64,000 nucleotides of DNA, taken from assembly GCF_022458985.1 (NCBI RefSeq), contig NC_061770.1, positions 34,949,599-35,013,598 on the forward strand. The letters run 5' to 3'. The translations under genes were made by a program, and so were the position numbers. Positions 2,811 to 47,900 of the stretch are shown here, piece after piece; the stretch's first letter is position 1, and every line of letters starts with the position of its first letter. The DNA comes from Mugil cephalus. Its lineage: Eukaryota; Chordata; Actinopteri; Mugiliformes; Mugilidae. The notes under the pieces are model-generated. The model saw only the letters and a list, made by a program, of their open reading frames with translations. It ran no database searches and had not been told where the DNA came from.

Positions 2811-5800
2811 ATGCCAACTGCAAAAGGTAAAGGCGCCGCGACGTCTCACCGTTACCGGCCCGCCGCAGAGTATGACGACGCCACGCTGGCCCAGAAAAGA
2901 GAGTACTGGAGGAACAAGAAGCGCGAGCAGAGGGCCCGTCTCTCGGAGCGGAGAGGGAAGCCGGCAGCACGGGAAGGGAAAAAGCTCCTGCATCTAAATG
3001 CCTCTGCAGGGACTTATTCGGGTTTATGCAGCTTCACTGCTTTGGCCTCGTCTTTGCAGAGCAACGACGACTCATACAATTCTGCATCACAGAGCGGACG
3101 TACGGCGGAGGACGGTCGCGCACTTGCAGCCGCCGAGAGTCAGGATTGGCTCGAGACGGTGAACGACAACAATATCTTGCCTCGGGCGCCGGTATCGTGT
3201 TCCGTCTCAGCCAAAGCCGCTGGGTGCGACGCGGCCGCGGTGACGTTGCCAACAGCGAGGGGCGCCGCGAGCAGAGCTGTTACCTCACCCACGTCCAGTG
3301 GGACCCAGCTGAACACCAGCTCCTTAGTGCCTCCGGTCGGAGTGGCCAGGATTACCAATGGCAGCTCGACTACTACAGCGCCTCAGCCATGTGTGTCTAT
3401 GCAGGGCGCACCAGACCCCAAAACCCAACCTAAGGCACGAGTTGCGTTACCAATCGAGCGAAAACTGGGTATGATTCTTGCGTCGTCTCCGCTCCGCCCT
3501 CTCTCCGTATCGGAGGACAAAACGACGAGCGCGACACCTCAGAGTTGTGCGAAGAGGGCTAAAGGTGCCGGTGTCGCACAGCCTGCCCTCGAGTCTGAGG
3601 AGGAGAGGGCGGCTAAGCGCAGGGAGCACTGGCGGATCAAAAAGCGAGAGCAGAGGGCAAAGCTGGCGGCTCAGATAGTGAAAACGAGAGAGAGGGCGCA
3701 GGGTGTGGAGATGACGTATCAGAGGCTGACGTCGCAGAAGGCCGGGCTCGCGGGCCGCTCGGTTCTTCTCCCGTCTCAGTCGCTGTCAAAAGGAGTTGGG
3801 CGGAAGCAGTGCCCCGCTAAGGTCAAAGCAGCATTCACATCTGGAAGAAGGGAAAACGGTAAAGTGCAATGTGAACCAGCGACTGTTGCGATGGCTAACA
3901 CGGATCACATCCAAAATTCACATGGGAATAGTTTAACACCAGACATCACGTCTGATCCCGGCATAAAAAAGTCAGCGGATCCACACAGGAAGCTTTCAAA
4001 TTACGTGCATCTTTATAATGTGACCCGAGGGATAGCGCGGTGTAAAACGCCCCGACAAAGACTCATCGAAGCGCAGAAATTTTTTATGAATCAGAGAAAC
4101 CTAAGGTGCAAGTCCCTGTTGGCGTCTTCTTCGTTGGCGTTCGGCACCAGGACTATGCCCAAAATCGACCCCAACGACACGCCTGAGCAGATAGTAGCCA
4201 AGCGCAGAGAGTACTGGCGGATGAAGAAGCGAGAACAGCGGGCGAAGCTGTCGTCGGAGGTGAGGGTCCGGCTGAAGGAGAAGGACTCTGTGACGCGAAG
4301 GGTGAAGCGTTACCAGAAGATACTCGAGGAGATGAGGAGAGCCCGAGCAATGACGCACTCGCCGGTGAGCGTCCTGACGCACGCCTCGGAAACCATCGGA
4401 GGGTTCATCAAAGAAGACGGGACTCTGACCTCGAACATCCCTCTGGGTCCTGCAGAACACAACATGACGGACAACATGAGTGAGGAAGAGCTTCACATAG
4501 CTTCTAAGTATAACTCCATCAGGCAGCAACAGAGTCAACCTCATAGTAAACGGAGAGGTGTTGCTCCCGTTAGGATGAACCAGCCGCCCCCTCCTCTACG
4601 CCTAGCTCAGGTGAAAGTCGCGTTTCCTCTCGGCGGAAAGTCGGCCAACAAGCCTCAACGACTGCTTTCAGTCAGACCACGGCCTCAGCTTGAAAGGACA
4701 ACCGGTCCGTCTGAAAGTCAAGCGGTCGCTCAGCTCACGCTCACCCGTCCTCAAACCCTTCAAAACGCCGCTTTGGACGAACCTGGCTTGAAACAGGGCG
4801 GCTGCGTCATGAAATTAGCCGTATCCAGTAGCGAGATGTCGCTGTCGGCGCTGTCCCTGGATCCGGGTTTGACGGAAGAGGAGAGGATGGCGAAGAAGAG
4901 GGAGTACTGGAGGATAAAGAAGCGCGAACAGCGAGCGGCTCGGGCTGTCCGGCTGAAGCAGGGCGTCCTCCAAGCGAGGGCCGGGGCAAGCTTGCAAAGG
5001 AGGAGGGCTCAGAAGCAAGTCGCGGTGGCGGCTGTGCAGCTGAGCAGGAGTCTGAGTGGACGTTCAGGAAAAGCGGCGCCTCTTGGCGACAACGGCGCCG
5101 CGATGCCACTCGCAAGCGACGTGAAACAGGAGAGGGAGTCTGTGCCAGCAGTTGACCTAAATTCCCAACCAGAACAAGCCATCTGTGAAGATATCGACCC
5201 CCCGATCTCACCATCGCCACCTCCAGAGCCTCAGCCAGAGTTTGACCCGGCTCTGAACGCAGACAGCCAAGCGACGACGCTGCTGGCTGTGGCCTCCATG
5301 AAGAAACTCCTGGAGGAATCGCTCAGCACAGTGACGGAATGTAAAAACGAGCAGACGGACATCACGATGAATGCGACGGAAGAGCAAGACATGAAGCCAA
5401 ATTTACCTCAGCTCTTTTTCGACAAGGACGACTTGGTTCCCATCACCGCTGACCTGACGCTGCAGATAAAAAGCTGGCAGACGGATAGCGACGTCTCGGC
5501 AGATTCGCTGAACCAGGAGCTCAGGAACTCGCCTCAGATTGGCGAGAAATCTCCACCCTTTCCCACCTCCAACGATGTGGCGCTCAATCCCACCTGTGAG
5601 CACTCGTCCCAGACGCCTCTGAACTTCATCGTGAACCCGTCTGCGGAAACGTTCGGTGGCTCGTTGTCATCGTCGCCGCCCACAACCCAGAGAGTCTGTC
5701 CCAAAAACGAAGACCTTCAAAGCCACCGTTCGCCGGAGCCGCCGGAGCTCCACGACGACGCGGCCACGTACCTGGATCGGCTGGAGCCGCGGCATGAGCA

Positions 5801-6026
5801 ACGCCGCGAACAACCGAGCCAGACGGAGGAAGGACGCCAGAGCAACATCTCGCCATCGGCGCAAACTTGTCCCGGCGCGGTGACGGAGAAAGTCGGCCCG
5901 ACCAGTCTGCAGAGCAAGAGGGAGTACTGGAAGCTGATGAAGAGGCAGCAGAGGGCCCGGTTAAAGGCCAGGCACAAAGACCGACACGGAGACGGCAGCA
6001 GTCACCTTTCTTCAAGAAACCTCCAG
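2811..6026 (+). CDS. Coding exon 1: five KREYWR modules
   Basis: 3216 nt, 1072 codons, phase 0 at the donor CAG|GTGAAG. Module starts at nucleotides 2895, 3615, 4200, 4893 and 5916. Module 5 is the most diverged (KREYWKLMKRQQRARL). The frame stays open 28 codons into the intron, ending with TAA inside a transposon copy. Confidence 0.9.
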
Positions 6027-9000
6027 GTGAAGTATTCCACAACACACACATGTGCACCAATCAGACACAACATCATGGCCACTGAGAAGAGAGTCAGATG
6101 TTTTAAATAACATTTAAAACATCTTGTGACAATCAGTGTTCTGCTGGGAAACTTCTGGACTTTGGAGTCATTCTTGAGGATGTTACTTAGACATGTAGCC
6201 CCCACCTAGACCAGACCAGACCAGACACCTCCACCCCAGCAGGATGCACATTAAAAAAACACTCCAGGAACAACTCAGAAAATGATCTGGCCTCCAAATC
6301 CACTAGATCTATAGAGGATGATCCTCTGTAGAGGCCCATCCCCTGAATCCATAGGACCCAACGACCCCCTACTAACAGTCAGGACACCTGCACAATATTG
6401 GAAAGGTGGTCGTAATGTTATAGCTGATCGGTGCACACAGAAAACAATGTTCCCCTTTCACACTAATACACAAGTATCATTTATTTTCCTAAATAAACTT
6501 TAAATGCGACACCAAGGTCTTTAGAAAACTAATTATTTCTTTGCTAATGGAAGCATCCAAGTGTTGTTCTGTTTCCCAGACGAGTCCAAGGATTTAGAAG
6601 AACCACTTGTGAAGCATTCAAAGCTTTAACCTGACACTAAATCATTTTGCTATGTCGGTTACAAGGCTGTGCATGTAACGATTATGATATTTCGCTTATT
6701 CATTTGCAGCAAAATATTTTTTTTTCCCCCCCTAGTGGTTCAGCTTTTCTTTCTCATCGAGTGTTTGCTTTCCAGACACATGAAAGAACCCTCTTGTGAG
6801 CAAACCTATTGAATTTGAGAAGCTTGTGGAAACAAGAAGAGGGAGGGTTTTTTATTTTTTTTCCCCCCTCCCTCTATATATAGAGTTGCAAAGGAGCGTT
6901 TCCAAGTGTGCACGGTGAAAATGTTTCGCATGTCGCCACAATCTGGTGCTCAACAGAAACTTAAAGAAAAACAAGGAACTAGTCGAAGCTCCGTTGAGAT
7001 TCTGTACATAGGAATAATTGTTTTCTGCTCCGGAGTCCAGTCCCGCTCTCTCAGGCTCAGCCAGATGAAACCTGAATCACTGCACCACAAACCCCTCTCT
7101 GGTATTTGACACTCGAACATCAAAAATAGAGGAGTGTGACTGAGTGGGGCCCCACTTAAAACTGGATGCAGCTCACTTGCGCTTCTTTCTGAAGGAGAAT
7201 TGCCTTCCAACCCTTCTGCAAAATAACACGTTGCATTGTTTCTCCCTCAGGGTTCAGGGCTCCTGGTTAATCCCGTTAATAAGGGAGCGAGTCCTCCGGC
7301 TAAACCGGTCCTCCGACCTAAACCCCCCACGTCTTCTGGTGGGGCCGGCGTCCCCTCGGTCCAGGCCGTCAACCGGACGCCGTGCGACGCCGATCCCTTC
7401 CGGGACGTCCACTCTTGCGAAAGTTCTCCCGTGTCCCCGCAACTTTCGCAAGAGTGGACGCCTGGAAACGCGGACCTGGACCTGGACCTGGACCCGGACC
7501 CGGCGCCCTCTCCCCCGACTCTGCAGCCCCCGGACAACCCGCTGTCGAGCATCAACCTGCAGCCCATCGAGCCTCCGGGTCAAAGTCCAAACGCCGTCCT
7601 GAGTCCGATAAAAATCCCCTGTGCTCAGCGGCAGAGCCCCACGCGTGCGACGCAGTCACCGACCAACATGGAACCTCTGAGCAACGTGGCCCCTCCGAAG
7701 CCCATCCGGGGCGAGTCCGAGGAGGACTTCCTGAGGAGGAAGAGGGAGTACTGGAGGATCAAGAAGAAGGAGCAGAGGGCGAGGAAGGCCAATCGGGACA
7801 AGGGGGTCTCTGCGAGGAGAGCCTGCAACAACTGGAGGCCCATCCTGCCAGCACACGACCTGCAAACACAGGTGAGACGCCCAGCGGCGTGTGACGCCTC
7901 CGGCTAATCATTGAACTCAACTCATCCTTAAAACGAGACGATAAGGAAACGGTTGCTGGTAGAAGTGCCCAGATGTTTTATGTTAGCAAAGAAGTGAAAT
8001 CAACCAAAGTTTTATCTGAAAATGGATCAAAAATATAATTTGGAGCAAGCAATTGATTATTATTAGTATTATTATTTGGATTTACATGTAATAGTCAAAA
8101 CTGTCAGAGGGTTCAGTCTGTTTCTGTTGTACAGGAGGGGAAGTAGTAGATGGGGAAGGAGGGAGAGTAGAAAAAGGAGGAGGACAAGAAAAGGGGAAGA
8201 GGGTTTGAGTAAGAAGAAGGGAGAGGAAAATACAAAGGGAAAATGAGGAAGTGGGGAGAAGACGAGATGAAAGCAGAGACAGAGGAGAAATAGTAGAAAA
8301 AGAAGGAGAAGAAAGAAGACGAGAACATTAGTTCAGCGTTTAAAGGTTCTTGTTTTTTTAATCCCGTCTGTGTAGGAGTCTGGTCAGTGGGTGAACTCTC
8401 CAGAGGAGCCAGAGCATCAAATGAGGTGGGAGTTTGTTTCAGTGTTTTTATTATTTATTTTTTAATTTTTAGCTCTGTTGAGGATCATGATTCTCTTTTC
8501 TTTTTTTTTAACAGCGCGTCGGTCGACACTGATCCAGGATCCTTCACTTACGCCGGCTACTCGACGCCAGTAGGAGGTGAAGTACCAGACATGTCGTTTT
8601 AATCCCAACCTCACACGATTAGTTTTATTATCGAGTGGTTGTGATGTCTACTTCCTGTTGTGTTGTGTACACCGATCAGCCATAACATTATGACCACCTA
8701 TTCTTAACATTGTGTAGGTCTCCACCTCTAGTGGCTCATCAGAGAATGGACATGGGTCTTCTGAGAGGGGTCTGAATGTTGTTAGTGAGGGGAGGGGTCT
8801 CTATGGTGGATCATCCCACAGATACTTGATCAGTTTGGGATCTAGTGAATTTGGAGGCCAGGTCAACACCTTGTGCTGTTCTTCATGTTTTTTGAGTTGT
8901 TCCTAAACCGTCTTTGTGGCTGATGCCATCAAGGAGTGTCATTGCTATGGGGTGGGGGTGTCTGGTCTGGTCTAGGTGGGGGCTACATGTCTAAGTAACA

Positions 9001-11074
9001 TCCACATGAATGACTACATGACTACCAGGTTCCAAAAGTTTCCCAGCAGAACATTGAATCATCTCAAGATGGTTTTAATGTTTACGTACTTGGCTCCTGT
9101 CGGTGGTCATAATGTTACGGCTGATCGGTGTAACCTCCAACTAGGTCGACCAGGCGAGCAACATCTGGACTTTGCACCCTGACATCAGTCCAAACTCTGA
9201 CTTAGAACACAGCCTTCACAAGTCTTGAGAGATCAGGATCAGAGCCGACCTCTGGAATTATTCCAAACCTCCAGAAACTAAACTAGAAACTAAAAGAAAT
9301 CAAACACAAGTGGCTCACGCTTCTCCTCCGACCCTTTTCCTCAGACGACTCCGAGATCATTTTCGGCGACTACGAGAGCAGCCCCGGCGAGGACGGCCCC
9401 ATCTCGGACGTGGTGTGGAGAACCCGCTACCTCATGGACTACGACCCCCTGAACCAGCTGCTGGTGTGCATGGTGTGCGGGGAGCTGCAGTACTCCCACG
9501 GCCTGGAGGGGGTCAGGGTCCACATAGACGAGTCCCACCCCCACACCATGACCCTGGAGCCGGCCGAGAAACGGCGAATACTGGAGGCCTGGGACGAGCA
9601 GGTGTCCCAGAGGGAGCGCTTCTTCACCAGTCAGCTGCAGCAGCACAGCGGGGCCCTGGCAGGTACGGTGGGACTACACTGGGGGGGGGGGGGGGGGTCG
9701 GTACTGGTCTCTGATCACGTGACAATAACAACATGGACGTCTCCTAGAAGACAGGATTTATTATTATATATGTTCCTTTATCTTATTTTGATGGACCATT
9801 AATGGACTTTTTTTCCAAAATCATTGTTGAATTATATGGTTAAATTGTTTTATATTGTAATTAAGTAAAATGTTTGTTTGCCTAAAATATTTTTCCACCT
9901 CACGAAAAGGCTAAATTACAAAGTCATTCAATGATGACATTTCACGTAAGAAAAAAAAAAAAGGGTCGGTATCTGTATCGGCGATACCAGCACCGTATTT
10001 ACATGGTATCAGATCGATACCAATTTCCCAGTATCGGCCACCCTTAGTATCGACCCACTGGACTCCTCACCTGTCTCCTGGGAGGCGTCCATGTTGTTAT
10101 TGTCACGTGACTCTACTCTACTAGTTTCTACTGGGTTTTTATTACCTGTTTGGCTGTAGAGAGGACAGGGTTAAACTTATTGTTCATGGTATCATTAAGT
10201 ACTTGCTGCTTTAACCACAGATACAAACTTCATTCCAGACTCCGTGAATACAATGAAGCCCAAAAGCTGCAGTTCATCAAGTGGCCACTAGAGGCCCCAT
10301 AAGGAAGCAAATCCCCATAGACTCCAATGTTAAAAAGACCAACTTAACAACAATATTAAACATGTTTACAGCCTGGTACAAAAAACGGGTTTAGTCTCAA
10401 TAGTTAATTTCACTTTTCATGACAAATGTACGGGGGGTGAATTATTTTCTAACTCATTCGTTTAGTTTTTTTTTATTAAGGTTTAAAATTCCCGCTCTGA
10501 GTGACAGGTGTTAGCCTGAGCTAACAGGTAGCGTAGAGTTGGGTGGGCGGGTCACAACTTCCGAACCACCCATGGACATATTTGGAATATCCACGTGTGG
10601 GCGGAGTAAAGCTCATCCAACATGGCGACTGCCGGCTCCGCCCACTTTAGGCTTCATTTTCGAGGTTCAGAATCGGGTTTGTCCATGATATAAACAGCCA
10701 ATGATCAGGGCACATTGGTGTCGTCAGTAAACAGTTTGTGTATTTTTATGAACAAAACAGTGATACACACAAACACAGTAAAAAATATAAATAAATAAAT
10801 TAAAGGGTAGGAAACAAAGAAGAGAATATCTAATAATCCAGATTTAAAAGAAAACTCCAAGATACCTAAACCCTGAAGGGCTCAATAGTTCGTTTTCTGC
10901 AACTTGCAGCATCAGCATCTCAAGAAATAACACATTTTCTTTTCTTTTTTTTAATAAAATTGTCCCTATGTGTTTGCCGTAGACTGGCGGCCCGTCCAGG
11001 ACGGACCCCAGGACGGACCCCACCTCTCACCCAGTGACATCGGGGACAGACTCCAGCCCCCAGACGCCCTCTAG
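2811..11074 (+). CDS. Large protein with six KREYWR modules and a SPINDOC/ZFTA-type zinc finger
   Basis: Six exons join in frame: 2811-6026, 7251-7871, 8376-8425, 8515-8576, 9345-9662, 10983-11074, giving 1452 residues and a TAG stop. The ATG at 2811 is the first in frame after a TGA, with A at -3. Basic modules of about 16 residues start near residues 29, 269, 464, 695, 1036 and 1236, mostly preceded by acidic residues, within long Ser/Pro/Gln-rich stretches that look disordered. A single C2H2 finger has Cys1358, Cys1361, His1376 and His1381, with WRTRYLMDYDP before it and KRRILEAWDEQ after it. This pattern is shared with SPINDOC and ZFTA (zf-C2H2_12 family). From the basic modules and finger I infer a nuclear, chromatin- or nucleic-acid-linked protein. 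The function is unknown to me and no symbol is given. Confidence 0.85.
6053..6435 (-). mobile_element. Mariner-like MITE in intron 1, family A, reversed copy
   Basis: The left end resembles CACCAATCAGACACAACATC and the right end GGTCGTAATGTTATAGCTGATCGG. The inside matches the 8.67-kb copy in reverse orientation. It starts 27 bp after the splice donor at 6027. Confidence 0.8.
6436..7250 (+). other. Rest of intron 1 of the six-module gene
   Basis: AT-rich sequence with T/C runs at about 6716-6733 and 6848-6872, and a normal polypyrimidine tract before the acceptor. I see nothing else. Confidence 0.6.
7251..7871 (+). CDS. Coding exon 2: sixth KREYWR module
   Basis: Acceptor TCTCCCTCAG, donor CAG|GTGAGA, 621 nt, phase 0 at both ends. 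It encodes a Pro/Ser-rich stretch with an alternating Asp-Leu/Asp-Pro run (DLDLDLDPDP) and then the sixth module (starting at 7740) preceded by ESEEDFLRR. It also contains the perfect inverted repeat at 7406-7460. Confidence 0.88.
7406..7460. repeat. Perfect 20-bp inverted repeat inside a coding exon
   Basis: Arms at 7406-7425 and 7441-7460 are exact reverse complements (left arm CGTCCACTCTTGCGAAAGTT), separated by a 15-nt loop. Both arms are read as protein, the left giving VHSCES and the right QLSQEW. The mRNA should be able to form a strong hairpin here. Confidence 0.95.
7872..8375 (+). other. Intron 2, with purine-rich tract
   Basis: About 8135-8330 is a long, nearly all-purine stretch on the plus strand (GGAGG, AAGAAG and AGAGG repeats). 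No coding sign. Confidence 0.6.
8376..8425 (+). CDS. Coding exon 3
   Basis: 50 nt between CTGTGTAG and AG|GTGGGA. It reads ESGQWVNSPEEPEHQM and leaves two bases for the next exon. Confidence 0.75.
8515..8576 (+). CDS. Coding exon 4
   Basis: 62 nt. The acceptor follows a T-run ending in AACAG, and the donor is GAG|GTGAAG. It reads SASVDTDPGSFTYAGYSTPV and leaves one base. The phase matches exons 3 and 5. Confidence 0.75.
8668..9132 (+). mobile_element. Full-length mariner-like MITE, family A
   Basis: 465 bp bounded by TA on both sides and by inverted ends (CACCGATCAGCCATAACA and its complement, continuing to about 28 bp). It has no coding capacity. This is the best reference copy of the family, inside intron 4 of the six-module gene. 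Confidence 0.88.
9345..9662 (+). CDS. Coding exon 5: C2H2 finger
   Basis: 318 nt from TTTTCCTCAG to GCAG|GTACGG. It carries the whole zinc-finger domain, with Cys-x2-Cys, 14 residues, then His-x4-His. This is the most family-like part of the protein. The intron that follows starts with a run of 17 G about 20 nt from the donor. Confidence 0.9.
9681..9697 (+). repeat. Run of 17 G
   Basis: Uninterrupted G tract 18 nt into the intron after coding exon 5. It could form a G-quadruplex in the pre-mRNA, and its length is prone to sequencing error. Confidence 0.95.
9955..10070. repeat. Fragment of a dispersed 'cgatac' repeat
   Basis: Sequence built on GGTATCGATACC-like words. Related sequence occurs near 28.08, 49.68 and 53.3 kb, which points to a dispersed element. 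Confidence 0.45.
10236..10690 (+). mobile_element. Non-autonomous element, family C, copy 1
   Basis: Ends ATGAAGCC and GGCTTCAT in inverted order. The inside matches 39.66-40.13 kb along its length (GCAGTTCATCAAGTGGCCAC, then TGAGTGACAGGTG, then CATCCAACATGGCGAC in this copy). Confidence 0.75.
10983..11074 (+). CDS. Coding exon 6 (last) with stop
   Basis: The acceptor TTTGCCGTAG leads into DWRPVQDGPQDGPHLSPSD and then IGDRLQPPDAL and TAG. The phase-1 join restores an Asp codon. The short duplicated QDGP unit reflects a DNA duplication. Confidence 0.78.
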
Positions 11075-11886
11075 AGGACGAAAAGACTGAACTCTTCACT
11101 CTGGACTCCCTGAGCCTTTTTTAACCCCCCCCTCTAAAGACCTTAGCATCCTTCATATTTAAGTATCTGATGGGCGTTAGCTTCTTCTTCTTCTTCACGT
11201 ACACAACAAACACCACCACACACATCATCAACACAACTTACCCCCGGTTTAGTTTATTTCCTGCCCTCACTGCCCCCGGGCTGCGTCGTCACTAAGTCGT
11301 CCGTCTTATATTTTTCTCAGGGTTTGTTTGTTTTTCGTTTCATTTTCCAATCGTTTTGCAGAAGCACACGGGAACTAGAGCTGCAGCGGTGAAAAAAAAA
11401 ACAAAAAAATAAAAAACGTCATTTTATTTTTATTTATTTATTTACTGTGTCACCTTTAAAAGAGAATGTGTTTTTTTTTTGTTTTTTTTTTTAAATACTG
11501 AAGCTGCTTCATATGAGATTTTTTTTTGTGATATTTTAAGTAGAAGCCTTAGAGGGAAGAAACACGGAGCGGATGTAAAAGATTTAAAGATGATGATGAA
11601 AATACAACAGAACAACAGTGTGACGAGAAAAAACATAAAACCTGCGAAAACGATTTAATTTAAAGTCACATCAGACCAGGTTGATCCTCTCACACATTTA
11701 ATTCACACTCAAGTTTCCCCATTTATCTTGTTATTAGTTAAATAAAACGCCTCATCTCCTGCGTGGAGGAAAAATAGATTTTTTTTTATTATTATTTCTC
11801 AGGTAAAACTCCCCCCCACACCAATGACACTGTTTGATGGCAGACACACAAAAACGGTTTAGACACGACTCAAAAAACCATAAAGA

Positions 11887-12859: not shown

Positions 12860-13512
12860 CCGGATTCCCGAGATTAATGTCAGTATTCTGAGAATAAAGT
12901 CAGAATTACGAGAATAAATCAGAATTCAGGGATTAATGACAGAATTCCAAGAATGTCAAAATTCTGAGATTTCTGAGAATAAATCAGAATTCTGATATCT
13001 ATGACAGAGTTCCGAGAAAAAAAATCGGAATTCTGAGAATGTCAGAATTCCTTGAATAAAGTCAGAATTCCGAGATTAATAACAGAATTCCGAGGTTTAT
13101 GTCAGAATTCCGAGGTTTATGTCAGAATTCCGAGAATAAAGTCAGAATTCCGAGAATGTCAAAATTCTGAAATTTATGACAGAATTACGAGATTTGTCAG
13201 AATTCCGAGAACAAATCAGAATTCCGAGAATGTCAAAATTCTGAGATTTATGACAAAATTCCAAGATTTATGTCAGAACTCCAAGAAAAAAAATCAGAAT
13301 TCCGGTAAAGTCAGAATTCCGAGATTAATGACAGAATTCTAAGGTTTATGTCAAAATTCTGAGATTAAAATCAGAATTCTGAAATTTATGACAGAATTCC
13401 GAGGTTTGTCAGAATTCCGAGAATAAATCAGAATTTCAAGAATAAATCAAAATTCTGAGATTTATGACAGAATTCTGAGAAAAAAATCTGAATTCTGAGA
13501 AAAAAGTCTGAA
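12860..13512. repeat. GAATTC-rich minisatellite between convergent genes
   Basis: About 30 degenerate units of roughly 18-24 bp alternating TCAGAATTCCGAGAATAAA and ACAGAATTCYGAGATTTATG types. Most units carry GAATTC. The array lies between the 3' ends of the six-module gene and ecsit. Its 96-residue open frame is an artefact of the repeat. Confidence 0.92.
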
Positions 13513-14391: not shown

Positions 14392-14442
14392 TCACTGCTT
14401 CATCCCGTGGCTTCTCCTCGGCTCCTCTTCCTCCGTGGCCTT

Positions 14443-14479
<37 letters not shown>

Positions 14480-14687
14480 TCTCCGGGCGGCGGCTCTTCT
14501 CTCCGGCTCGACTCGGAATAATCGGCCTCCGCCCCCTGCAGCTCCCGGGGTCCGGCGTCCAGGCGGAAGAGCGTGGGGACCCGGCCCAGGACGGGGTTGT
14601 CCCTCTGGAGGCCGGAGACCCACTGGTTGAGGGTGGCCTGGTCCCCCTGGTTGGTCATGCACATGGCGAAGACCGGACCCTCGTCCA
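14392..14687 (-). CDS. ecsit: ecsit coding exon 7 with stop
   Basis: 296 nt. After the conserved [10 protein letters not shown] and VFRL-type segment (TLFRLDAG) the tail becomes Glu/Arg-rich with a Gly-Ala run, ending HGMKQ and TGA. Confidence 0.95.
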
Positions 14688-17600
14688 CTGGATGAGGACG
14701 CAGAGACGAGACGTGAGGGTGGAAAATGAAACGCTGGAAAATGAAAACACGTTAAAAAAAAAACGTCTTACGGTCTTCAACGTCGAAAGACTCTTCGTCC
14801 CCGAAGTCCCGGTCTAAATCGAGGTCGAGCTGCAGCGGGTACTGAAGGCTCCTCTCCGGGTCGTACGGCTCCTCTACCTGAGGGACGAGATTCACCCATG
14901 TAAGGGAAACCAGGTACGTCGTGTTTAACCTCATCGTTGTTTTATTTAAACCCACCTTCTCTTCGGGTGGCGTGGGGTCGGCTCTGAGGACGTAGTAGTA
15001 GACGCACGTCTTCCTCAGCCACAGGGGGAAGGGACCCTCCACAAACACCGGCCTGTTCGGGTTGTGCTTGGCCAGAAGCTCCATCTGACTGGGGCTCTGG
15101 ACGCCTGGAGGCAACACGAGGAAAGGAAGTTAAAGGAACTTGACGGTAAAAACAAAAACCAAAAAAAAAACAGCGTAGACATGATAATAATGATGCTTCC
15201 ATACCTACGATGTGTGGGAGCGTGACCTCGGAGCCGCTCTCTGTGACGTCTGTGCAGGGAACCTAGAAGGTAAGAGGCAACGAGGAGACGTTATTTAACG
15301 TAAAAGAGAAGAAGTAAAGTACTTGATTTCTGGTGGTGTCAAACATAGACTGTATATAAATATGGACTAAACACGTCTCCACTTCCTCTCATTGGCCAAA
15401 CTGGGGATACGGGTCAGAGGGCGGAGCCACGATGTCGATGCCCCGCCCACACTTCCTCCAGACTCAAGTAAAATGTTGGATTACAGGTCGGCATGGCAAC
15501 CGGTGGTTGCCATTATGTCACATCCTGTTTCTGTAGCGTCAAATAACGAACTAAAACGTAAAACAGCGTTTTAGTGTTTTAGTCCATTTACCTCGGAGGT
15601 CGGAATTAGCGGCGTTCCAGTTACAGAAGTCGGAAAATTAGATGGTCTGGAGAAAACTTGGTGTGTTCAGTATTTACATTTTTTGAGTACAAAGTGATTG
15701 ATATATTTGATTTTTACTAGTTTTTTTACTAGAATTATTTACAGTGATGAAATCTACAAGACCACACAAGGCAGAAAATTGAATAATTTTTAAAAAGAAA
15801 AAAGAAAAACACAATTAATCACAGTTTGAGCCAGTTTGGCTCTGTTTTGATTTTACCAGGCTATTGTTTTTAGCCGTTGTTAGCTTATACTTTCCATATA
15901 ACACATGAAAAACTTAAATTACACTGAAACAGCATTTTAACGTATGTATTGAGAAAAAATCTTGTCTGTACAACTGATTTAACGCAACAAAAACTAATCA
16001 GTAGAGCTAATAAACGGATTATTACATGAGCTTCTAATGGCTGTTTACAAACGGGGCGGCCATCTTGGAAACTCAACACGGGGGTAGTGAGGATTCTACG
16101 ACTTTCTGAGTAGAAAATTTCGACATTCTAGCTGAAAATTCTAACTTTCCGAGTACAAATGGAACGCACCAAGTCCCGCCCACTAACATGGAGGGGGTGG
16201 AGCTTATGACCTATACTGCAGCCGGTCACCAGGGGGAGCTCTACTTGCTTTAGCTTCGCTTTAGAGGAGCCGTCCATCTTTATAAACAGTCTATGGCAGC
16301 TGCTACAAAACCCCTCAGTTAGAGACGTCACCGAGCTGAATAAACTCGTAGTATTCAGAAATCTGAATATATAAGCTTTAAAAGAGGTGACAGTAGGACG
16401 ATTTCCCTGCTATGTTTTGAATCTTAGCTGAAACAAGCTCCAGCTGTACCTGGTAGACGGTGACTTTAGCATCCAGGTCGTTAGCGATGCGAGTCAGGCT
16501 GAAGCGAGCCAGGTCCACCGGGTCTTCGGGGAGCTGGTGGGGGACGGGGAACGGGTTCACGTGCTTGAACTTGGGGAACCAGTACATGATGCGCTGGTAC
16601 TTCCTCACGGGGTGGCCCTTCTCTCCAAAGATCTGGACCAGCAGGACTTTGGTCTCGACGTTGGGCATGACACCTGAAGGACGTGGAAGACGTGAATAAA
16701 CGTGCATCGAGAAGTTCCCTGTGTAACATGATCAGCTGACGCGTTCTCACCGTAATTCTCCATCTGCTCCAGAAGCTGAACTCCGCACTCCTGCTGTCTC
16801 GGATAGTGGTTGAACATTCGCTGGATGAAGTTCCTGGGCACAAACACTTCTTTGGGGAAGACGTCCAGCAGCTTGTTGTAGACGGCGAGGTCTCGCTCCA
16901 CCCCGAACTCGGGCATCTTCTTCAGGGCGGCGTAGATAAACTCCACGTGGCCCCTGCGCCTTATGTCCTTCTTGTTGAAGACCTCGATCACCTTGTTGAA
17001 CGTGGCCTTGGTCTTGGCGTCTTTCGCCACCCGCTCAAACAGGTCGTCGTGGGCGACCAGCGAGCTGTCCTTGCTCTTGTCTTCGTTGCCAACGAACTTC
17101 GCGGGGCGGGGCTCTTGGCCCTTGGCCCGTGAGGTGCTGCCATGGAGATGCCTCAGCACCTACAAGTGACATCACAGTAGGAGTTAGTTCAGACACAACC
17201 CTGATGTAATATGTCAGAATAACAGCCCATTAAAGCATCTTATGGTTTAGCTAGTTTCACTAATTCCAAGGAACATTTGTTTACCGTAACTCTTTGAATA
17301 AAGACGAAACAAAATACGGGCTAAGTCGATTGTTACTAATAAAAACATCTTTGCAACAACTAAATATTATGATAATGCACATATTGTTTATTTACTCCTT
17401 CTAAAACCTCAGGATGCCACACTGGAAATACCAGACTATTCTGATGTGAAATTTCAGAATAAATGCCTGTTAAAGTGTCAATTTAGCCATTTATTTAAGA
17501 ATTCTTTGTTTCCACAGACTAATTACATTCCACACTGATCAGGATATTGTGATGTGGAATTAAAGATTGAAATCTAACACGTTTTAATGTGGTTTCATTC

Positions 17601-23900: not shown

Positions 23901-26900
23901 AAAATAAAAAGCCCTGGACTTCCACGGAAAAGCAGCAGCAGTGAGTGATGATGATGAGTCCGTGATGAAAAGCCTTTTTACAGTAGCAGCCATTCAGCCG
24001 TGTGAAGAGTCCTCTGCGGGAGGTAGGCATGTCATTATCCCAGTCGACCACAGAGACAAGTCTTCACAAGAGGAAATAAAAAACAAGGTGCAGGCCGGTT
24101 CTCTGAGAATAGAAAGACCAAATTAGAGATTGCCAAAAATTGCAGACTAGTTGTGGTGGAAGAGATCAACCTGAGCCAGGATTAAGGAAAGGAGCATTTT
24201 AAGTTCATGTGTTTAAAGTCGTAATTCCAGTATAAATCCAGAAATTACTTCCTAAACTTTAAGGATGTCCCGAACAAGTCGTATTTTGCCTCCTAATCCT
24301 GTTCTGAGTCCTGATCTGATCTTAAATGAACAAAACATCCTCCCTTGGAGATTCATAAAGTCTTTTTTTTTAACTAGCAACTCCATACGAGATAAGTAGA
24401 AAACACTAATTCGATAGAAGATAACTAGCAAACAAAACTAACTCGATACAAGATAAATACAAACAAAGCTAACTAGATACAAGATAAATACAAACAAAGG
24501 TAACTCGATACAAGATAAATACAAACAAAGCTAACTAGATACAAGATAAATACAAACAAAGCTAACTAGATACAAGATAAATACAAACAAAGCTAACTAG
24601 ATACAAGATAAATACAAACAAAGCTAACTAGATACAAGATAGCAAACAAAGCTAACTCAATACAAGATAAATAGCAAACAAAGCTAACTCGATACAAGGT
24701 AAATAGCAAACAAAGCTAACTCGATACAAGGTAAATAGCAAACAAAGCTAACTAGTTACAAGATAAGTAGCAAACAAAGCTAACTGGTAACTAGCAAAGC
24801 TAACACACACATACACACAATGATAATGATTCATTTTCCAGAGTAAAGTTCTTCTGCACGGCAGACATGTTTAGTCGCGTGCCGTTTTTGGTTCCTCTTC
24901 TTCTTCTTTTGTTTGCTTTTTCAGAAGCTTTGATGCTAACCACCAAAAAGGAATAAGACCTTTTGTAGCTGTTAGGACGTGGTTTTGTTTTATGACAGAC
25001 CTAAAATAAATAACTGTGAAAGATCAGGCTTTCAAAGAAGCCCAATACAGATTCAGATAGTTTTAAAAATATGAGCACCGATATAAATCTTAACACAGCG
25101 TTATCACAACTTTTTGAGATACCTAATAAGTTGGGAGGAGGCTTTACTGTTGTGTGGTTTAAAGTTTTAAACGGTCTGGAATTAGTATATATGTGGATTT
25201 GGGACGTAGGGCAGTGGTGCAGAGAGATGCAGGAAGTTGCATCAGGGGCTTTTTCCCAGAATGGTGTAATACTGCTTCTTTTCAGAGGAGCTCACATGCT
25301 GTTTTGCTGGAGCCTGGAGGGTAGACGGTAAATTTTCCCTGTGGTGTGTCTCGTGGCTCAACATTAAACCTTTAGACACTTTAGTGCACTGAGTGAAATC
25401 AGCGAAGGCGGCACAGCAACATGGTTCTTGGCGACTGGGGCCTTAATGTGTGGAGTTTCCATGTTCCCTGTGTCTTTGTGGGTTTTCTCCAGGTTCTCCT
25501 CCAGCTTTCCCCCAATGTCCAAATACATGCTCGTTAGGCTCGTTAGCTATTCTCTGGACCTGCTAGCTGCACAGGGATGCAGGACCTGGCTGGGACTCCC
25601 CAAGCAGACGACTAGACCACTTGAAGTTGTTTGAATGACCTATGACCCTAAAGGAAAAGCCAAAATGGATGCAGTATAGTAGTCAGTGGAGGATTAAGAT
25701 GGGATAAGGGTGTGAGTTTTTTTGCCCACTTGAAGACTCAAATGATGTACGGCCTACTGCTGTTGGCTAGGCTAGTTAGCAAGCTAGTTAGCTAGTTAGT
25801 TATCTCATTGTTGGTTGCTAGCTGGTAGCTGACTGCTAGCCTGACTCCTAACGTCTTGCAAAACCGAAAAAAAAACTTGAAGTTTCATCACATACCAGCC
25901 ACTGCCAGTCGTAGACAACTCTGGTTTGGTTTTTGCGATTAACCGAAAGGATTTGAGTGAGAAAATCAACAACTACATGCACACTTGATATCAGGTCAGA
26001 TTAATATGTAATACATCTTCAGTTTCAGCCTGGATAACGTTATGAGTTAGAATAAATCATGACTGAAATTACATTCAATTAATCATTATTTGGGAAATCC
26101 TTGTTACAGGATAATGCTAATGCTAAATGCTAGGTAACGCGTCGTTAGTTGTATATTTCTGGGGTGTCCAAGCAGAAGTTGCATTTACTACGTTACCCTC
26201 CTCAGTGGTTCCACTTACTTTTTGTAATATCTTTGTTGGAGAGGCTTCACTCTCTGTGTCCTTTGGTCAAATCGTCCATCCAGTGAGTGAGAGTGTAGGG
26301 GTCGATAAATATAGTCCCATCAGAGTCAGAGTCAACTTTTTAAAATAACACTCACGGTCTCGGGGAGTGATTGTATTAATATATTCTCTAAAATATGTGT
26401 TTTCCTCGTCCTTTCTTGGCAAAACAAATACGCTAACCACCGTTTACAGGCTATAGTGTTTGAGATGTTTTGCCTCCAGCTAAGCCCCGCCCCTCAAAAA
26501 ACGTCACACTGTTTACAAACTGTGAAGGGGTCTACTGATTGTCTACTAACCATGTTTTTAAGTGTTTTGTGAATGAGTTTGTGTATCTTGTATCTTACTG
26601 GGTACTATGCTCCGTGTGTGATGCTCAATATGAAGCAATATGATGGCTTTAGTGTGGTAGTGTGGACTCACATGCCAGCGCCCAGATTGTCATACAGTAT
26701 GTGATATGTGGCGCTATCGTCGCATTGTGGTACAGTTTGGCTGAATCGGCAGTTAAGTTATTGCTAATAACTGACAGCTGGGATAGGCTCCAGAGGACAA
26801 GCAGCTACAGAAAATGAATGAATGAATGAATGAAATCAGTGATGTGCGTGGTGGTTTGAAGGCTTGTGATTGGTCAGATTCACAATTAGATTGGCTGCTT

Positions 26901-29900: not shown

Positions 29901-32900
29901 TTTTAAGATGATAATTTATGTGCGGCTTTTCGTCCTAATACCACCTAAAATCTCGGAGGCCTTGCGCTCACATGCACGCGCTATGATTCACCAGTGAAAT
30001 ATGTTTCTGCAGAATTGTTCTGATTCATTTCCCTTCACATTCTGAATCATAGATTTATAATAATAACACGGGCCAAGACACTTTAGCCTCCATCTACAGT
30101 GGTGTGAAAAAGTGTCGGCCCCCTTCTTGATTTCTTATTTTCTTGCACGTTTGTCACATTTAGGTGTTTCAAACTAATTTAAATATTAGTCAAAGATAAC
30201 ACACGTAAACACAAAATTAAGGTTTTTATTATTAAGGGAAAACTAAATCTATGGCCCTACATGGCCCTGTGTGAAAAAAGCGACTGCCCCCTTAACCTAA
30301 TAACTGGTTGGGCCACCCTTAGCAGCAACAACTACAATGAATCTTCCATAGCTCCACTCTTCTATAGTTCCACTCATCTCTGCAGAATTGTTCATGCTGG
30401 GTTTTCCAGCATGAGTTGCTTTTTTAAGGTCATGCTACAGAATCTCAATAAGATTGAGGTCAGGACTTTTACTCGGCCACTCCAACGTCTTCATTTAGTT
30501 TCTCTTCAGTCATTCAGAGGTGGACTCGCTGGTGTGTTTTGGATCATTGTCCTGCTGCAGAACCCAAGTTCTCTTCAGCTTGAGGTCACCAACAGATGGT
30601 CGGACATTGTCATTCAGGATATTTTGGTAGACAGCAGCAAGTCCTCCAGGTCCTGAAGCAGCAAAGCAACCCCAGACCATCACACTACCACCACCACCAC
30701 CACCAGATTTTTACTTTACATATTATGTTCTGTTTCTGAAACGTCTCAGATGTAATGGGACCCACACCTTCCACAATGTTCAACTTTTTTCTCGTTAGTC
30801 CACCGAGTATTGCAAATTTCCCAAGAGTCTTGAGGATCATCAAGATGATTTCTGTCCAAACCGAGATGAGTCTTTATATTCGTTTTGCTCATCAGTGGTT
30901 TTCATCTTGGAGCTCTGCCTTGAGGCCATTTAAGCCCAGTCTCTTTCTTATGGTGGAGTCATGAACACAGACCTTAACTGAGGCAAATGAGGCCTGCAGT
31001 TCTTTGGATGTTGTTGTGGGGTCTTCTGTGACCTCTTGGATGAGTCCGTCGCTGCGATCTTGGGGTAATTTTGGTCGGCAACTCCTGGGAAAATTCACCA
31101 CTGTTCAGTGTTTTCACCATTTGTGGATAATAGCTCTCATTGTGGTTCAGTGGACTCCCAAAGCTTTAGAAATGGCTTTACAACCTTTTCCAGACTGATG
31201 GATCTCAGTGACTTTCTTTCTCATTTGTCCCTGAATGTCTTTGGATCTCAGCATGATGTCCCAATTTTGAGGATCTTTTAGTGTACTTCACTTTGTCAAG
31301 CAGGTCCTGTGAAAGTGATTCCTTGATTGATAACAGGTGTGGCTGTCATCTGGCCTGGGTGTGTCTAGACAAATCGAACTCAGGTGTGATAAACCACGGT
31401 TATGTTTAACAGGAAGGGCAAACACTTTTTCACACAGGGCCACGGACTTTAGCTCACTAGATAGAATAAAAGTAATACTTCAGATATTAATGAATACCTG
31501 TCTTATCAGCTAAACAAACACCACTTTCTTTGTGTAAGTGTATGTAGTAGGTGATTTGTTCCAGAGAGTTCATGTAATTGATGTTGTTAATAAAGAGATC
31601 AGTAGTGGGACAATTTATCTGAAGTCAGGTTAGTACTCGCTGCCAAGAACATCTTTGTGAGAGGCTAAGTATCCTCTGTACTTGAAAGATGGAGACGTAT
31701 GAATGTTGTGCTGACGGTAAAACCCAAGATTTTTTAAATTACTGTGGACACCTCTTTCCAGAAAATCAGAATAAATGGACATGGCCAGAGAATGTGATGC
31801 ACAGCTAAGAGTTGCGTGCCAGCTGTTGAGGTTTCTGCTTTCAGGGTGATGAAAGGTTTTTCCTACTGAAATCTCTACTGAAAGTCCGAGAATTGGTGGA
31901 CGACTGCGTACAACACTAGAACTTCAGATTCTTTAAAATCGACTGTTATGTGATGAAAGTCAAGTGAACACTGACGAGTCTCGGATGACGTCACACATTA
32001 AAAACCCAGTAGAAAGTAATTAAATCTATATTCTTGACCTGAACACATATGCCGAGAACAGACAGCTCATGTTCTACATGCTTTGTGCTGCAGATATTTA
32101 TATCCTGGATAAAAACAGGCTGCAAGTCAGCACCAAAGCCACCAACAAAAAATGTGATATATCTCTGAAGTCTTCTCCGTGTCCTGCAGCTACAGGTCTA
32201 ATACCTTTATCTAACAGCTGATGTGGAGACTCCTTCTCTGCTGGCGTTGGACCGTTCCTCTTCTAGTATTAGCAGATGTCTTTTCAGATGCATTGCAGTA
32301 GGACTGTAATTTTATTTCAGGACTGTCATGTCACGGTAGTATGGGTTTCATCTTTAGTAAAATATTTCCTCATACCTAGGGTTAGGCCTTAGGGTTAGAG
32401 TTAGGACTTAGGTTTAGGGTCAAGGGTTAGGCCTCAGGTTTAGGGGTTAGGGTTAAGGGTTAGGGTTAGGCCTTAGGGTTAGGCCTTAGGGTTAGGCCTT
32501 AGGGTTAGGGTTAAGGGTTAGGATTAGGCCTTAGGTTTAGGGTTAGTTTGCTGCAATGAACCAATGGACTCCTAGGAGGTCTCTGTGTTATATTTAGGTT
32601 TACTTTCACTTCTATTTAAAGAAGCCACAAGATGAGGTTCCTGCAAATCACCTTGCAAATGTTTATGATGGTGCCTTCAGGGCCTAATGCAGCTAAAGCT
32701 TTTAAAACATTTAAAGAGATGAAACAAGACTCTCTGTTCTACATTGTCCATTTCTGTGCATCATTTCTTCTTTTTGTGATACCCTTTTGGGCACAAAAGT
32801 GTGACACTGAAACGCACAGACACAAAAAGAAGCATTCATGTGACACTGGAACATCAAACTCCTCACCTTACACGACACTATTAGTGATATAATCTCTGTT

Positions 32901-35900: not shown

Positions 35901-38900
35901 AATAAGTATTTAAAGATTTGTATCGTGCTATGTGATGATTAAGATATCAAAGGCCTTGTGGAGTCTTTTCCTGGGGGGTCCACTTTTATTGAAAGTTTGG
36001 TATTTTTATGTGCAAGCAGCGGTCACATATACAGAGGACAGTTAATAGGTTTTCTCCCTCTGGGCAAATTCAGCAATAAACTGTGCCTTTGGAGGAAAAC
36101 TCCAGCTTCCTGTTTGGTGTACCTTCCTGTGCAGAGCTGACGTGATAAAGACGGTATGAGACTGTGTCCAGAGTCTGAGTCTGGAGGCAGAAAAGACAAA
36201 TAATCTCACTTTTAGAGACAATGAATTCACTCTGGCAACTTGGAGTCACTGTATTAACTTTTTCTTCCTCTTCATTGACTCACATCAAAGCTGGCAAGAA
36301 GAGGAAGCACGATCACGTGACTAAACATGTCTGCTGCGTGGAAGAACTCTACACTGGAAAATAAAGTCGCTCAGACAGAAATATGTAAATTATGGATGTT
36401 TGGTGAGGTGGCGATGGTTTGGTTATGGCTAATCAATATTTCCAACTTGATTTGCAAAGGCAGCACAGAAGCTTCACCCGTTTTCAAGTTAAAATATGTA
36501 AAAAAAAAAAAAAAAAAAAAAATTTTCCTTGATTGTATGAGGACGAGCTTTCTAACACGTTACAAGTGTTAAAAGAAGAGAAAAGAGAGCGTTAGTGAGT
36601 TTATGGCAGCACTGGATGACCAGAACATTTATGGACTACGGCTACGAGCTACCCTCTTGAAAGCTAGGAAGAGCTACCATAAGGTAAGAAGCTAGAGAAA
36701 GATACTGTTAGCTGGGATCCTAGGAAGCTAGGAAGAGATTAGCTGGGGGGCTAGCAAGAGCTGCTATAATTTAGGAAGCCAGAGAGAGATGCTGTTAGCT
36801 GGGATCCTAGGAAGAGATTAGCAGGGAGGCTAGGAAGAGCTGCTATTAGCTAGGAAGCTAGAGAGAGATACTGTTAGCTGGGATCCTAGGAAGCTAGGAA
36901 GGGATTAGCTGGAAGGCTAGGAAGAGCTACAAGCTAGAGAGAGATGCTGTTAGCTGGGATCCTAGGAAGAAATTAGCTGGGAGGCTAGGAAGAGCTGCTA
37001 TTAGCTAGGAAGCTAGAGAGCGATACTGTTAGCTGGGATCCTAGGAAGCTAGGAAGGGATTAGCTGGGAGGTTAGGAAGAGCTGCTATTAGCTTGGAGGC
37101 CAATAATCTGGGAAGAACAACAACAAACATTGAATGGAGCGTTTAAACGAAGGAAAAGTTTCCTGGAGTTTAATCTTCCAGAGAGGGTTAAGGAGTTTAT
37201 GGCAGAACATTTATGGAGTAGAGAACACAAGAACAAGCTCCTCTCGCTACATTAACTTTGACTTAAAGAAAGGTTTATTGGACCAAATCCAGTCAACTCT
37301 AGGAGAAGACAAGGAAAGACTTTAGGAATCTACTGAGGAGGGCATTTTCTTTATTTAACATCCAGTCGATACTGAATATTAAAAGATCGATATCTTCAAG
37401 TCTGGAGACGCATTTTGATACCGGGTGGGAGCACGAGTACAGATTGAGAAGGTCGGATGTTAATGTGAGATCTGCTGATAGGCCAGTTAATGTCACATCA
37501 CTTTATTTGTTCCCAAGGGGCAAAAGGGGGCGGGTAGCTAAAGATAGACATAACCACAATGAATAGACACGAGGGGTGGGTTTAGGCAGGGACTTCACGA
37601 TACGATATGTATCACGATACTTGAGTCACGATACGATACTTCATTGCGATATTGTAATGTATTGCAATATTCTACATAGTTCACTGAGAAATTTGTGGCT
37701 TAAAATACACATCGTATATATGTACATCAGATGACATCAGTGATAATTCATTGGACAAATTGAGTCAACAAACAACATTAATCCAAATGATCCATTTCCA
37801 ATTTATTGCACTTGTACAGAAAAAGGCCCAAAACTCAAAACTTTTCGGTTTCTTTTAAAATTGATATTAACACATTCAAAATAAATATTGTATTAGAACA
37901 AAAACTATCGCGATATATTTTACATATCAAGATTTTTTCCCACCCTAATAGATATGAAAACAAAAGCACACATGTACCGCACACAACAATCCCAATAATA
38001 AGACAGCGGCAAAGGCGGAGGATTAGGATATATTTTTTCTGACTAGCTTTGCAGAAAGAAAGCATTGAACATAAACAATATCATCTTTCAAGAGATCACC
38101 ACCGCGTTACTAATTGTCTGTAGTTTTGCGTTTCCTTCTGTGTTTCTGTGCAGCTGTTGTTTATCTTCTTGGCCCGTCTCCAGCTTAAAGCGTTTCCCGT
38201 CTCTTATCAGGGGTCTGTGCGGCAGACTGAAAGTAAATAGGTGACGTGTGTTTATTGATGGTCTTAAGAATCCGTAACACCTGGGGATGAGTCGGGACGA
38301 TGGCATCCATCAACCAGACGCAGGGCCGACCGTGTAAAACTGTAAAAACCCAACATGGGCTAAAGTGCGAAAAACATAAACACAAAAAAAAAAGCTTCAC
38401 GGATGTTGTTAATCCATCAGTGTCTGAATGTTACAGTCGGATCGGGTTCTCGCGGGCTTCAGAGTGTTTATTTGCTAATGACGGCGAAGTCTTTGATGGT
38501 GCTCGCTGACTGATGAAGCCTCCTCCGAGGAACAAGGTTGGAGGTTTCAGCTTTCAGCATGTGTTTCTGCTTTTCTCGGCCCTTTCCATCATTAGCCTCG
38601 TTAAAGGAGGGCTGGAATGTTTTAATTGTTTATCATCAGGTAATAAGGGTTTAACACGGCTGTTAAAGCTCCAGGCCACTTTCCATTAAACACAACGAGG
38701 CTCAGTTCCTCCCCTAGTCTGAACTTCGGTCTGTTTGATTTTCTTTTAGACTATTTTGAAATTAGAAAACTAATTAGCTTGACGTTCAGTGGTGATCGAC
38801 CGCATGAACACAGCAGAGAATTTTAAAAAGCCTGGTAACTTTGATATGGAAAAGTTAACATCCAATATGAGTTATGGACAAGGTTTAAACAATACAAAAC

Positions 38901-44900: not shown

Positions 44901-47900
44901 CTGTGGGAGCCGACTCACCTACTTATTACTTCGGTTAACGCCTGCCTGCGCTGCGTAGGATTGCAGTGAAGAAATATAAAACAACTCTTAAAATGGCCCA
45001 GTGAGACTTGAGTGGCCGAGTAATCGCACAGAATGCAAACACAACTGAGGCGTGGCTGGAGTGGGAAAGTGTCATTCGTATCCTGTGACACAAGAACAGG
45101 AGGAGGCGTTCGACATAGACAAACCTTTTACACCAGAACGAACACAAACTGTAGCTCCACTCCACGTGCAGTAACGTCTTCTAGAAGCTTTAGACACTGT
45201 TTGCTGTTCAAACACAAACGTGTATAATCCCCAGAAAACACGTGTATGTTTGTCTTTCTTTGCATACACATTAAAATGCTCTTTTACATAGTTGTTTGCA
45301 TGCAGTTCAGTCCTAACCCCATCCCTTCCATCCAGATGTGAAACACATTTTGCAAAGTCCTGTTACATTAAGGGGAATAAACCTTCAGCTGGACCGAGAC
45401 TGAGTTGTTTAACTTCCTGAACGTTTAAATGGTTGGAAAGGCTGAATGTGTTTTTTTTTTTTGGACTCTCTTACTTGTCATCGAAAGACAGAAATTGCAT
45501 TTGGCAAGATGAAGTAAAACCCAAAACTTGAACCCAAAACCAGAGCGCTACAGAGAGAATGGAATCTGTGCTTTATTTTGGCGAGATAGAACTTAATTCT
45601 CAGTCCTTCGTGTCCTATGGGTTGAGGGGAGGGGTCTCTATGCTGGATCATCCCACAGATACTTGATCAGTTTGGGATCTAGTGAATTTGGAGGCCAGGT
45701 CAACAGCTTGTGCTGTTCTTCATGTTTTTTTTTTTTTTAGTTCTTCCTAAAGCTTTTTTGTGTGTGTGTCAGGCTGCATTCTGCATGGGATTGGCTGCTT
45801 CAAACCATCAATGAGTGTCATTACTGTGGGATGGGGGGTTCTGGTCTGGTTTAGGTGCCTGGTACATGAGTCCATGGGCAGTAGACCACATTTATACCAA
45901 CATTTAGCATTATAGAGACATTCGAGATGGGTGAAGGAAGGTTAAATCCTACACATACAGCAGTATCTTCATTGTCATTGGTCGATGCTATTTACTTCTC
46001 CTGATAGTGGTCATAACAAAACATAGTGTGACCATGTGTAATCATGGTTTTCATGTCGGTGCTAGAGAAGGCGTGGAAGCATTTTAATAGAAGCTCAATA
46101 TCTTGATTTCACTAGTATTAAAATGTGTTTGTGTACATTTATTATGTTGTTTGGATGTTCAAATACTTTAGGGAATGTGAGCTAGACGGCATTTTGTCAT
46201 ATCGGACGACATATTGAGTGATTAATTATTGTTTATTGCCGCCCAAATTGTGCAAATGATTTGACCTTTGTAGATGTCTGTGAAGGTGGAGAAAGGCATC
46301 CGGACTTATGGAGTTTCTTGAAGCCGATTCATCCGAGTAGCTTCCTCAGGTTCTAAAGGACTGGTGCAAGAGTTGTGGTATAAATAGGAACATCTGCGGG
46401 TGTTAACCATCAGAAACTAACCTAACTTCTGTCTGTTAACCACCTGTTGTTGGAGAAGACAGTTTGACCCTGACCTCTTCCTCCACTTTGCAGACGATGT
46501 CTCGGCGGACAGCAGCGCCGAGTTCCCGGACCGGGCGTCCATGATGGAGGTGCGCCTGCAAGCGCAGGAGGATGAGATCACGCTGCTCAAGTCCTCGCTG
46601 GCCGACGCTCTGCGCAAAATCCGCATCCACGATCAGCTCCTCCCGTTGCTGAAGCAGCAGCTCATAGCGAGTGGGTGACGTTCACGGACTGCATCCGTCC
46701 AGTGCGGTGGTGTCGCTCAGAGCTTACTAACCATTTCCTCTGATACCCCCCTCAGTAAACCCGGGCGCTGCACGGGTTCTCAACCAAGTGTGCGGCTCAG
46801 ATGGTTGCACCAGTGTCAGGAAACTGTCCTCCAGCTCAGCCTTCGATGGCATCCGCCACCCTCCAACCAGGTACTGCACCGTCAAACCAGGGGCTTACAG
46901 AGACACAAATGAGGATGGACCATTGTTGTATCATTGTGCCTTAGTGGTGTCCGTGTACTTGTGTTCATATCTGTGCGTGATCTTCCTATATGACTGTTGT
47001 CTGGTGCTCTCAACCCTTGAACTATCTCTAGCCAACCTTCAGACAGCATTGTACCCAATGCTAACGGCCACACAGGAACCCCAATGTCCTTGGAGTTCCG
47101 AGCCAGACCAGCAACACTGGACCGGTCGACCCAGACCGAGCCCACCCCATCCGAGCAGGACAGGGTCCCTCTCCCCAGGCAGGTCCAGAGCCTGCAGCTG
47201 GAGGATGCCCTCCTTCCAGGGCAGTCTTCGCTTGAAGGGAGCCGGGCCAAGCTCCACCGGATCCCCGGGATGGAGGAAGAGGACGAGGAGCAGGAAGAAG
47301 ACGAGGAAGACGGAGGGGAGCAGGAGAAGGACCTGACTTGGACGTCGTCGGTGGAGGAGCCCATCCAGCCCACCACGATCCGAAGCCTCCAGAGGGAGGA
47401 CTTCCAGGACGGGAGCTGCTCTCCAGAGGACCCAGGTCCTGCCTCTCTGAGAACTTCAGACCAAAACCTCAGCCCCCGATCTGGACCCCTGTCCCCCATC
47501 CAGGAAGGACAGAAATCACTGTGCGTTCGTTCGTCTTCTCGCATCGTCGCCGCTTCCTCCGTAACCGTAATCATCTTTCCCCAAATCTGATTGCATGATT
47601 CGCAACTTGGATGAATTAACCGTAACACTGTTTCCCTTAATTCTCACTCTGCAAAGCCCAGTTGTGCTGCAAGCAGCATGAAGCCTTCAGCCTCAGGTAG
47701 CCAGGGTATGATTACATAGAGCCGGAAACCCAAGGGAGATGACATGTTCTGTCGTCGTGTGCTTTCTTTTCCATTTGTTTGAGCGAGGGCTCTCGGGGAG
47801 TGGGGAATGGAGGAGGGGGGGAGGGCATAAAGCTGTAGCAGAGCATAATGGTGGCACTTGTTCGCAGCAATCGCACTGACACAGAGATTTGAATCCAGTG

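Follow-up and report, generated by a model that had tools for sequence, protein, structure and literature searches.

The closest described relatives of the gene analyzed here carry zinc fingers of the Spin-doc type (PF18658). SPINDOC (C11orf84) works with Spindlin1 (SPIN1) and PARP1 (PMC8568969; PMC10400593, both in excerpt), binding Spindlin1 through residues 251–293 and PARP1 through residues 115–165 (excerpt of PMC8568969), and its Spindlin1 binding is abolished when residues 253–280 are absent (excerpt of PMC7878818). Fusions of ZFTA (C11orf95) drive more than 95% of cortical ependymomas; finger 1 of this protein binds a PLAGL-type site, as tested on DNA holding GGCCCC, and binding is lost upon changing a zinc-site Cys and His (excerpt of PMC12431856). 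A working analogy of another kind is provided by the STPR of FMBP-1/ZNF821, which likewise consists of repeated short basic units; in the silkworm, these become helix-rich on DNA (excerpt of PMC4821344).

We analyzed a 64,000-nucleotide stretch (the window) of contig NC_061770.1 of the grey mullet, Mugil cephalus, a percomorph teleost. An earlier note had described a 1452-residue protein in which six basic KREYWR modules are joined to a single finger. Rebuilding the gene from the window confirmed this description, giving six forward-strand exons joined in one frame, with GT-AG at every internal border: the coding part of exon 1 (2811–6026; residues 1–1072, modules 1–5), an open frame ending in a GT donor, followed by exon 2 (7251–7871; residues 1073–1279), exon 3 (8376–8425), exon 4 (8515–8576), the finger-bearing exon 5 (9345–9662), and a doubtful last exon (10983–11074). 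By script comparison, the rebuilt protein is letter-for-letter identical to the RefSeq entry "si:dkey-28a3.2 [Mugil cephalus]" (P0002), which shares this last exon. The layout is therefore already predicted in RefSeq, contrary to the suggestion that it was undescribed, but a literature search found no paper on si:dkey-28a3.2, its KREYWR module, or a function for the gene; what it did bring up concerned, judging by the listing, plant C2H2 families and C11orf95-RELA. We conclude that the mullet gene is real, conserved, already predicted in RefSeq, and apparently unstudied. Its convergent neighbor is ECSIT (about 14395–17159, minus strand), the two genes lying tail to tail.

The REYW tetrapeptide of the modules occurs at residues 30, 271, 466, 697, 1037, and 1237 (REHW in copy 2), i.e., at spacings of 241, 195, 231, 340, and 200 residues, such that the six modules span about 1,220 residues. 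Six RE[YH]W sites compare with a mean of 0.003 expected from 2000 residue shuffles of the protein. The 16-residue cores, all on the forward strand, are KREYWRNKKREQRARL (module 1; 2895–2942, residues 29–44), RREHWRIKKREQRAKL (module 2; 3618–3665, residues 270–285), RREYWRMKKREQRAKL (module 3; 4203–4250, residues 465–480), KREYWRIKKREQRAAR (module 4; 4896–4943, residues 696–711), KREYWKLMKRQQRARL (module 5; 5916–5963, residues 1036–1051), and KREYWRIKKKEQRARK (module 6; 7740–7787, residues 1236–1251). They share 56–88% mutual identity (mean 73%), carry a charge of +6 or +7 per 16 residues, and contain Trp and Gln in all six copies. These values and the shuffle test bear out the proposal of six near-identical dispersed modules; modules 1–5 fall within the 3.2-kb exon 1, and module 6 falls in exon 2. 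An acidic lead-in had also been noted before most copies; this holds for most of them but fails for copy 5, which is preceded by VGPTSLQS.

Whether the module is a known named domain, which would have undercut its novelty, is answered in part. No Pfam domain reached its curated cut-off over the module in 30 relatives scanned at E 0.5. A weak sub-threshold match to CCDC-167 was seen in eight of these 30 (best E 0.074), including P0002 (residues 459–510, E 0.12, 13.1 bits, the cut-off being 27), and other sub-threshold matches occurred in single proteins only. The module likewise found no match among solved structures, and these searches thus gave no relative whose function could be transferred to it.

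A protein search returned 285 matches, of which 120 were listed. Among the matches listed, we took the 84 proteins of 1250–1700 residues from P0001–P0121 (P0002 included) as full-length relatives, a selection by length that favors complete proteins. All six modules were counted by profile in 82 of the 84 and five in the other two, a count that is partly circular as the profile was built from modules of the same family. Across the 84 aligned proteins, the mean frequency of the most common residue was 0.934–0.984 for the six cores (those of modules 2 and 3 being set one residue later in this count than in the coordinates given above), 0.880 for the finger, and 0.704 elsewhere in the protein. The claim that the cores are far better conserved than the linkers is thus upheld against the linkers as a whole, but one non-module stretch exceeds every module: residues 823–838, TLLAVASMKKLLEESL, form the most conserved 16-residue stretch of the protein (frequency 0.995). 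With the preceding residue, this stretch, TTLLAVASMKKLLEESL, occupies 5274–5324 on the forward strand (residues 822–838) within a predicted helix (residues 817–841). Further conserved stretches, RLKEKDSVTRRVKRYQ and THASETIGGFIKEDGT, follow module 3. From these alignments, the image of a loose chain with conserved beads holds, but the beads are of more than one kind.

Module copies are more similar within a slot than between slots: in a subsample, identity averaged 0.87 for the same slot across species versus 0.45 between slots, means that omit copies missed by the anchor pattern (37 of 82 in slot 2 and a single copy in both slot 3 and slot 5). This difference indicates that the module duplications are old and that each slot has been kept separately. 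By the same comparison, the modules of P0185 are closest to slots 1, 4, 3, and 6, those of the Albula protein to slots 1, 6, and 6, and a paddlefish protein (P0158) combines the finger with two modules, whose best resemblance, a weak one, is to slot 6 and slot 1. The modules seen here come from ray-finned fishes, including the non-teleost paddlefish; of the 120 matches listed, two are labeled as ferret in one source but also bear the label Oreochromis. No modules were found in Panthera SPINDOC (P0178) or in four ZFTA proteins (P0180, P0181, P0182, and P0184).

The exon 5 frame alone matched PF18658 with E 4.4e-25 (87.6 bits against a gathering cut-off of 27.3), in agreement with the earlier assignment of a single SPINDOC/ZFTA-type finger. 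The domain lies near the C-terminus, at 9416–9598 on the forward strand (residues 1341–1401), and is of C2H2 type, with ligands C1358, C1361, H1376, and H1381; these four positions do not vary across 24 aligned sequences, one of them a SPINDOC, and the finger was detected in 27 of 30 relatives scanned. The mullet finger is 62–80% identical to five other si:dkey-28a3.2-type fingers, 40% to one SPINDOC finger (Panthera, over the aligned stretch), and 27–41% to 17 ZFTA fingers. In a tree of the 24 fingers, the six fish si:dkey-28a3.2 fingers group together (95/95), and the placement of SPINDOC rests on a long branch that drew a program warning. Judged by their sequences, si:dkey-28a3.2, SPINDOC, and ZFTA are most reasonably regarded as three branches of a single family.

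Each branch has its own architecture. SPINDOC resembles the mullet protein in having one PF18658 finger and in sharing HPHT and ILEAW segments with it, but is only 385 residues long in the Panthera copy and lacks modules. By offset from that copy, we estimate that the PARP1-binding residues 115–165 correspond approximately to the end of the finger and the C-terminal helix, where ILEAW is shared. ZFTA proteins share the PF18658 signature YLMDYD...LVCMVCG but have several fingers (P0180 has five and P0184 four, these being the two that were Pfam-scanned) compared to one in mullet. The presence of a ZFTA protein in one catfish (P0184, Tachysurus) and of a module-plus-finger protein in another (P0156, Hemibagrus) suggests that the two are paralogs. 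The full-length fish si:dkey-28a3.2 orthologs seen share the mullet architecture, except that the C-terminus of the mullet RefSeq protein differs and is probably mis-ended. As a third branch of the finger family, bearing six conserved basic helices, these proteins offer a natural comparison for identifying the working partners of the finger.

We also considered whether exon 1 (modules 1–5) and exons 2–6 (module 6 and the finger) represent two genes or transcripts joined only by annotation. Two sets of models point this way: the Nematolebias entries are split (P0117 and P0128, whose listed contigs are equally long), and of the Lates isoforms, one lacks the finger (P0013), whereas another, short one is limited to module 6 and the finger (P0126). 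Against this, the frame runs through the exons, the sequence flanking the exon 1/2 joint can be aligned in the 19 relatives viewed, and module 6 and the finger occur in one protein even in the split models. The earlier note had asked whether the finger exons belong to another transcript; this is answered in part by the presence of the finger's end in 79 of the 84 length-chosen full-length proteins and by paddlefish P0158, in which modules and finger are combined. A two-gene or two-transcript origin therefore seems very improbable. Alternative products that separate modules 1–5 from module 6 and the finger are nevertheless possible, given that the Lates isoforms and Nematolebias models part them in this way.

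An AlphaFold run on the 1072 residues of exon 1 (44 aligned sequences, mean pLDDT 47.9) yielded helices only, at residues 23–48, 263–310, 414–432, 458–515, 689–743, 817–841, and 1032–1059. All five exon 1 modules fall in these predicted helices (modules 1 to 5 in the first, second, fourth, fifth, and seventh, respectively, that of module 3 being long), as does the extra conserved stretch at residues 822–838; module 6 lay outside the run and is placed by sequence. The remaining predicted helix (4050–4106, forward strand; residues 414–432) contains no module and overlaps a conserved stretch at residues 407–422. The helices sit between linkers with pLDDT below 50, a value assigned to 766 of the 1072 residues, and the linkers are probably disordered according to this model. 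For the finger, the prediction (24 sequences, mean pLDDT 81.9) gave two strands along with short helices and, at the C-terminus, a long helix (72–103). Comparison with solved structures found no meaningful fold match. Conservation within the module favored no single helix face (2369 of 10000 shuffles were as strong) and hence no binding face can be read from it.

Taking these observations together, we tentatively favor, at somewhat less than even confidence, the interpretation that si:dkey-28a3.2 encodes a nuclear protein of the SPINDOC/ZFTA family in ray-finned fishes that uses its finger and six basic helices for multivalent contact with DNA or chromatin. The reading draws on DNA binding by a ZFTA finger, the partners of SPINDOC, and the behavior of the STPR. 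In such a mechanism, the protein would reside in the nucleus, where the finger may dock on DNA like ZFTA finger 1 or on a chromatin partner like SPINDOC; since its identity with the ZFTA and SPINDOC fingers compared is only 27–41%, it does not necessarily share the DNA binding of ZFTA. Each of the six basic helices would hold on to a nucleic-acid or chromatin surface of the same type, such that six weak, equivalent contacts could let the chain hold chromatin at many points at once, and the non-module helix TTLLAVASMKKLLEESL may recruit a cofactor. The STPR analogy has its limits: FMBP-1 has four tandem 23-residue repeats (excerpt of PMC4821344), compared to mullet units 195–340 residues apart. 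A bolder version would make the KREYWR module a helix of an undescribed class that binds nucleic acid or nucleosomes. The protein, which joins it to a ZFTA/SPINDOC-type finger, would then be a chromatin scaffold with six hands, present in ray-finned fishes and lacking a counterpart in tetrapods; we regard this version as unlikely. The module is short enough to be studied as a 30-residue peptide.

The composition of the modules bears on three other functions. Glu, Tyr/His, Trp, and Gln are near-fixed within the core across the family, with the proviso that the pattern used to collect modules itself required Trp and some basic positions. The occurrence of Glu, Trp, and Gln within the basic core of nearly every copy exceeds what charge alone would need and fits docking helices for a single acidic or folded protein partner, e.g., the nucleosome acidic patch or a Tudor- or PARP-type protein, which the six copies would cluster. 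The same possibility is supported by the family relative SPINDOC working through protein partners (251–293 for SPIN1 and 115–165 for PARP1; excerpt of PMC8568969), but the Spindlin1-binding SPINDOC peptide (7CNA_B, 7E9M_B), a short query, had no match in the mullet protein at E 10. We rate docking on a protein as a serious though rather unlikely alternative to multivalent DNA or chromatin contact.

Viral and phage arginine-rich peptides bind RNA as helices, and an Arg/Lys-rich helix with Trp and Gln and a charge of +6 or +7 would suit an RNA scaffold. No Pfam RNA-binding domain was found in the proteins scanned, however, and the sole domain with a name is a finger, of which the relative that has been studied binds DNA; an RNA-binding role is accordingly improbable. 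The KREYWRxKKREQR runs also fit the general composition of nuclear-localization signals. That the modules serve mainly as repeated signals of this type, with no other role, is scarcely credible: import would not call for six copies placed 195–340 residues apart, all of them retained by 82 of 84 proteins and nearly constant at Glu, Tyr/His, Trp, and Gln. Contact with DNA or chromatin through finger and helices remains the reading that we prefer.

At the 3′ end of the gene model, the earlier end coordinate, 11074, is probably wrong, as the 30-residue tail encoded by 10983–11074 was found in no relative seen. Many relatives instead end in SGALAEAHRN or similar; E[ATV]H occurs near the stop in 41 of the 79 proteins with the finger's end, and those of the others that were viewed mostly show tail variants or earlier ends. 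In the window, a forward-strand exon at 11362–11378, TTTTGCAG|AAGCACACGGGAACTAG, is in the right phase and gives ALAEAHGN followed by a stop, with AATAAA then at 11408. Given the matching exon in phase, the tails of relatives, and the AATAAA, the true mullet protein probably has 1427 residues and ends in EAHGN; the 10983–11074 exon is probably a mis-prediction or a lineage-specific alternative.

Several other features of the gene and its surroundings were recorded. Coding exon 2 contains a perfect 20-nt inverted repeat with a 15-nt loop at 7406–7460; the corresponding RNA hairpin (7395–7470) has a folding energy of −47.7 kcal/mol (z −9.4). It sits where mullet lacks approximately 20–35 residues found in most of 25 relatives viewed, and a template-switch deletion might account for both the hairpin and the loss. 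Ends of a dispersed repeat (GATCAGCCATAACATTATGACCAC) have 10 matches in the window at three or fewer mismatches (zero expected), with locations including 6404–6439 and 8664–9132; the copies in intron 1 and intron 4 are oppositely oriented. Tandem arrays occur at 12868–13512, 24379–24785, and 36663–37097, with units of 20/77, 31, and 87/155 bases, respectively, and telomere-like, TTAGGG-rich interstitial arrays at 32378–32546 and 56726–56831. Finally, a GC-rich segment at 46885–47643, with no Pfam match above cut-off, contains long overlapping open reading frames on both strands.
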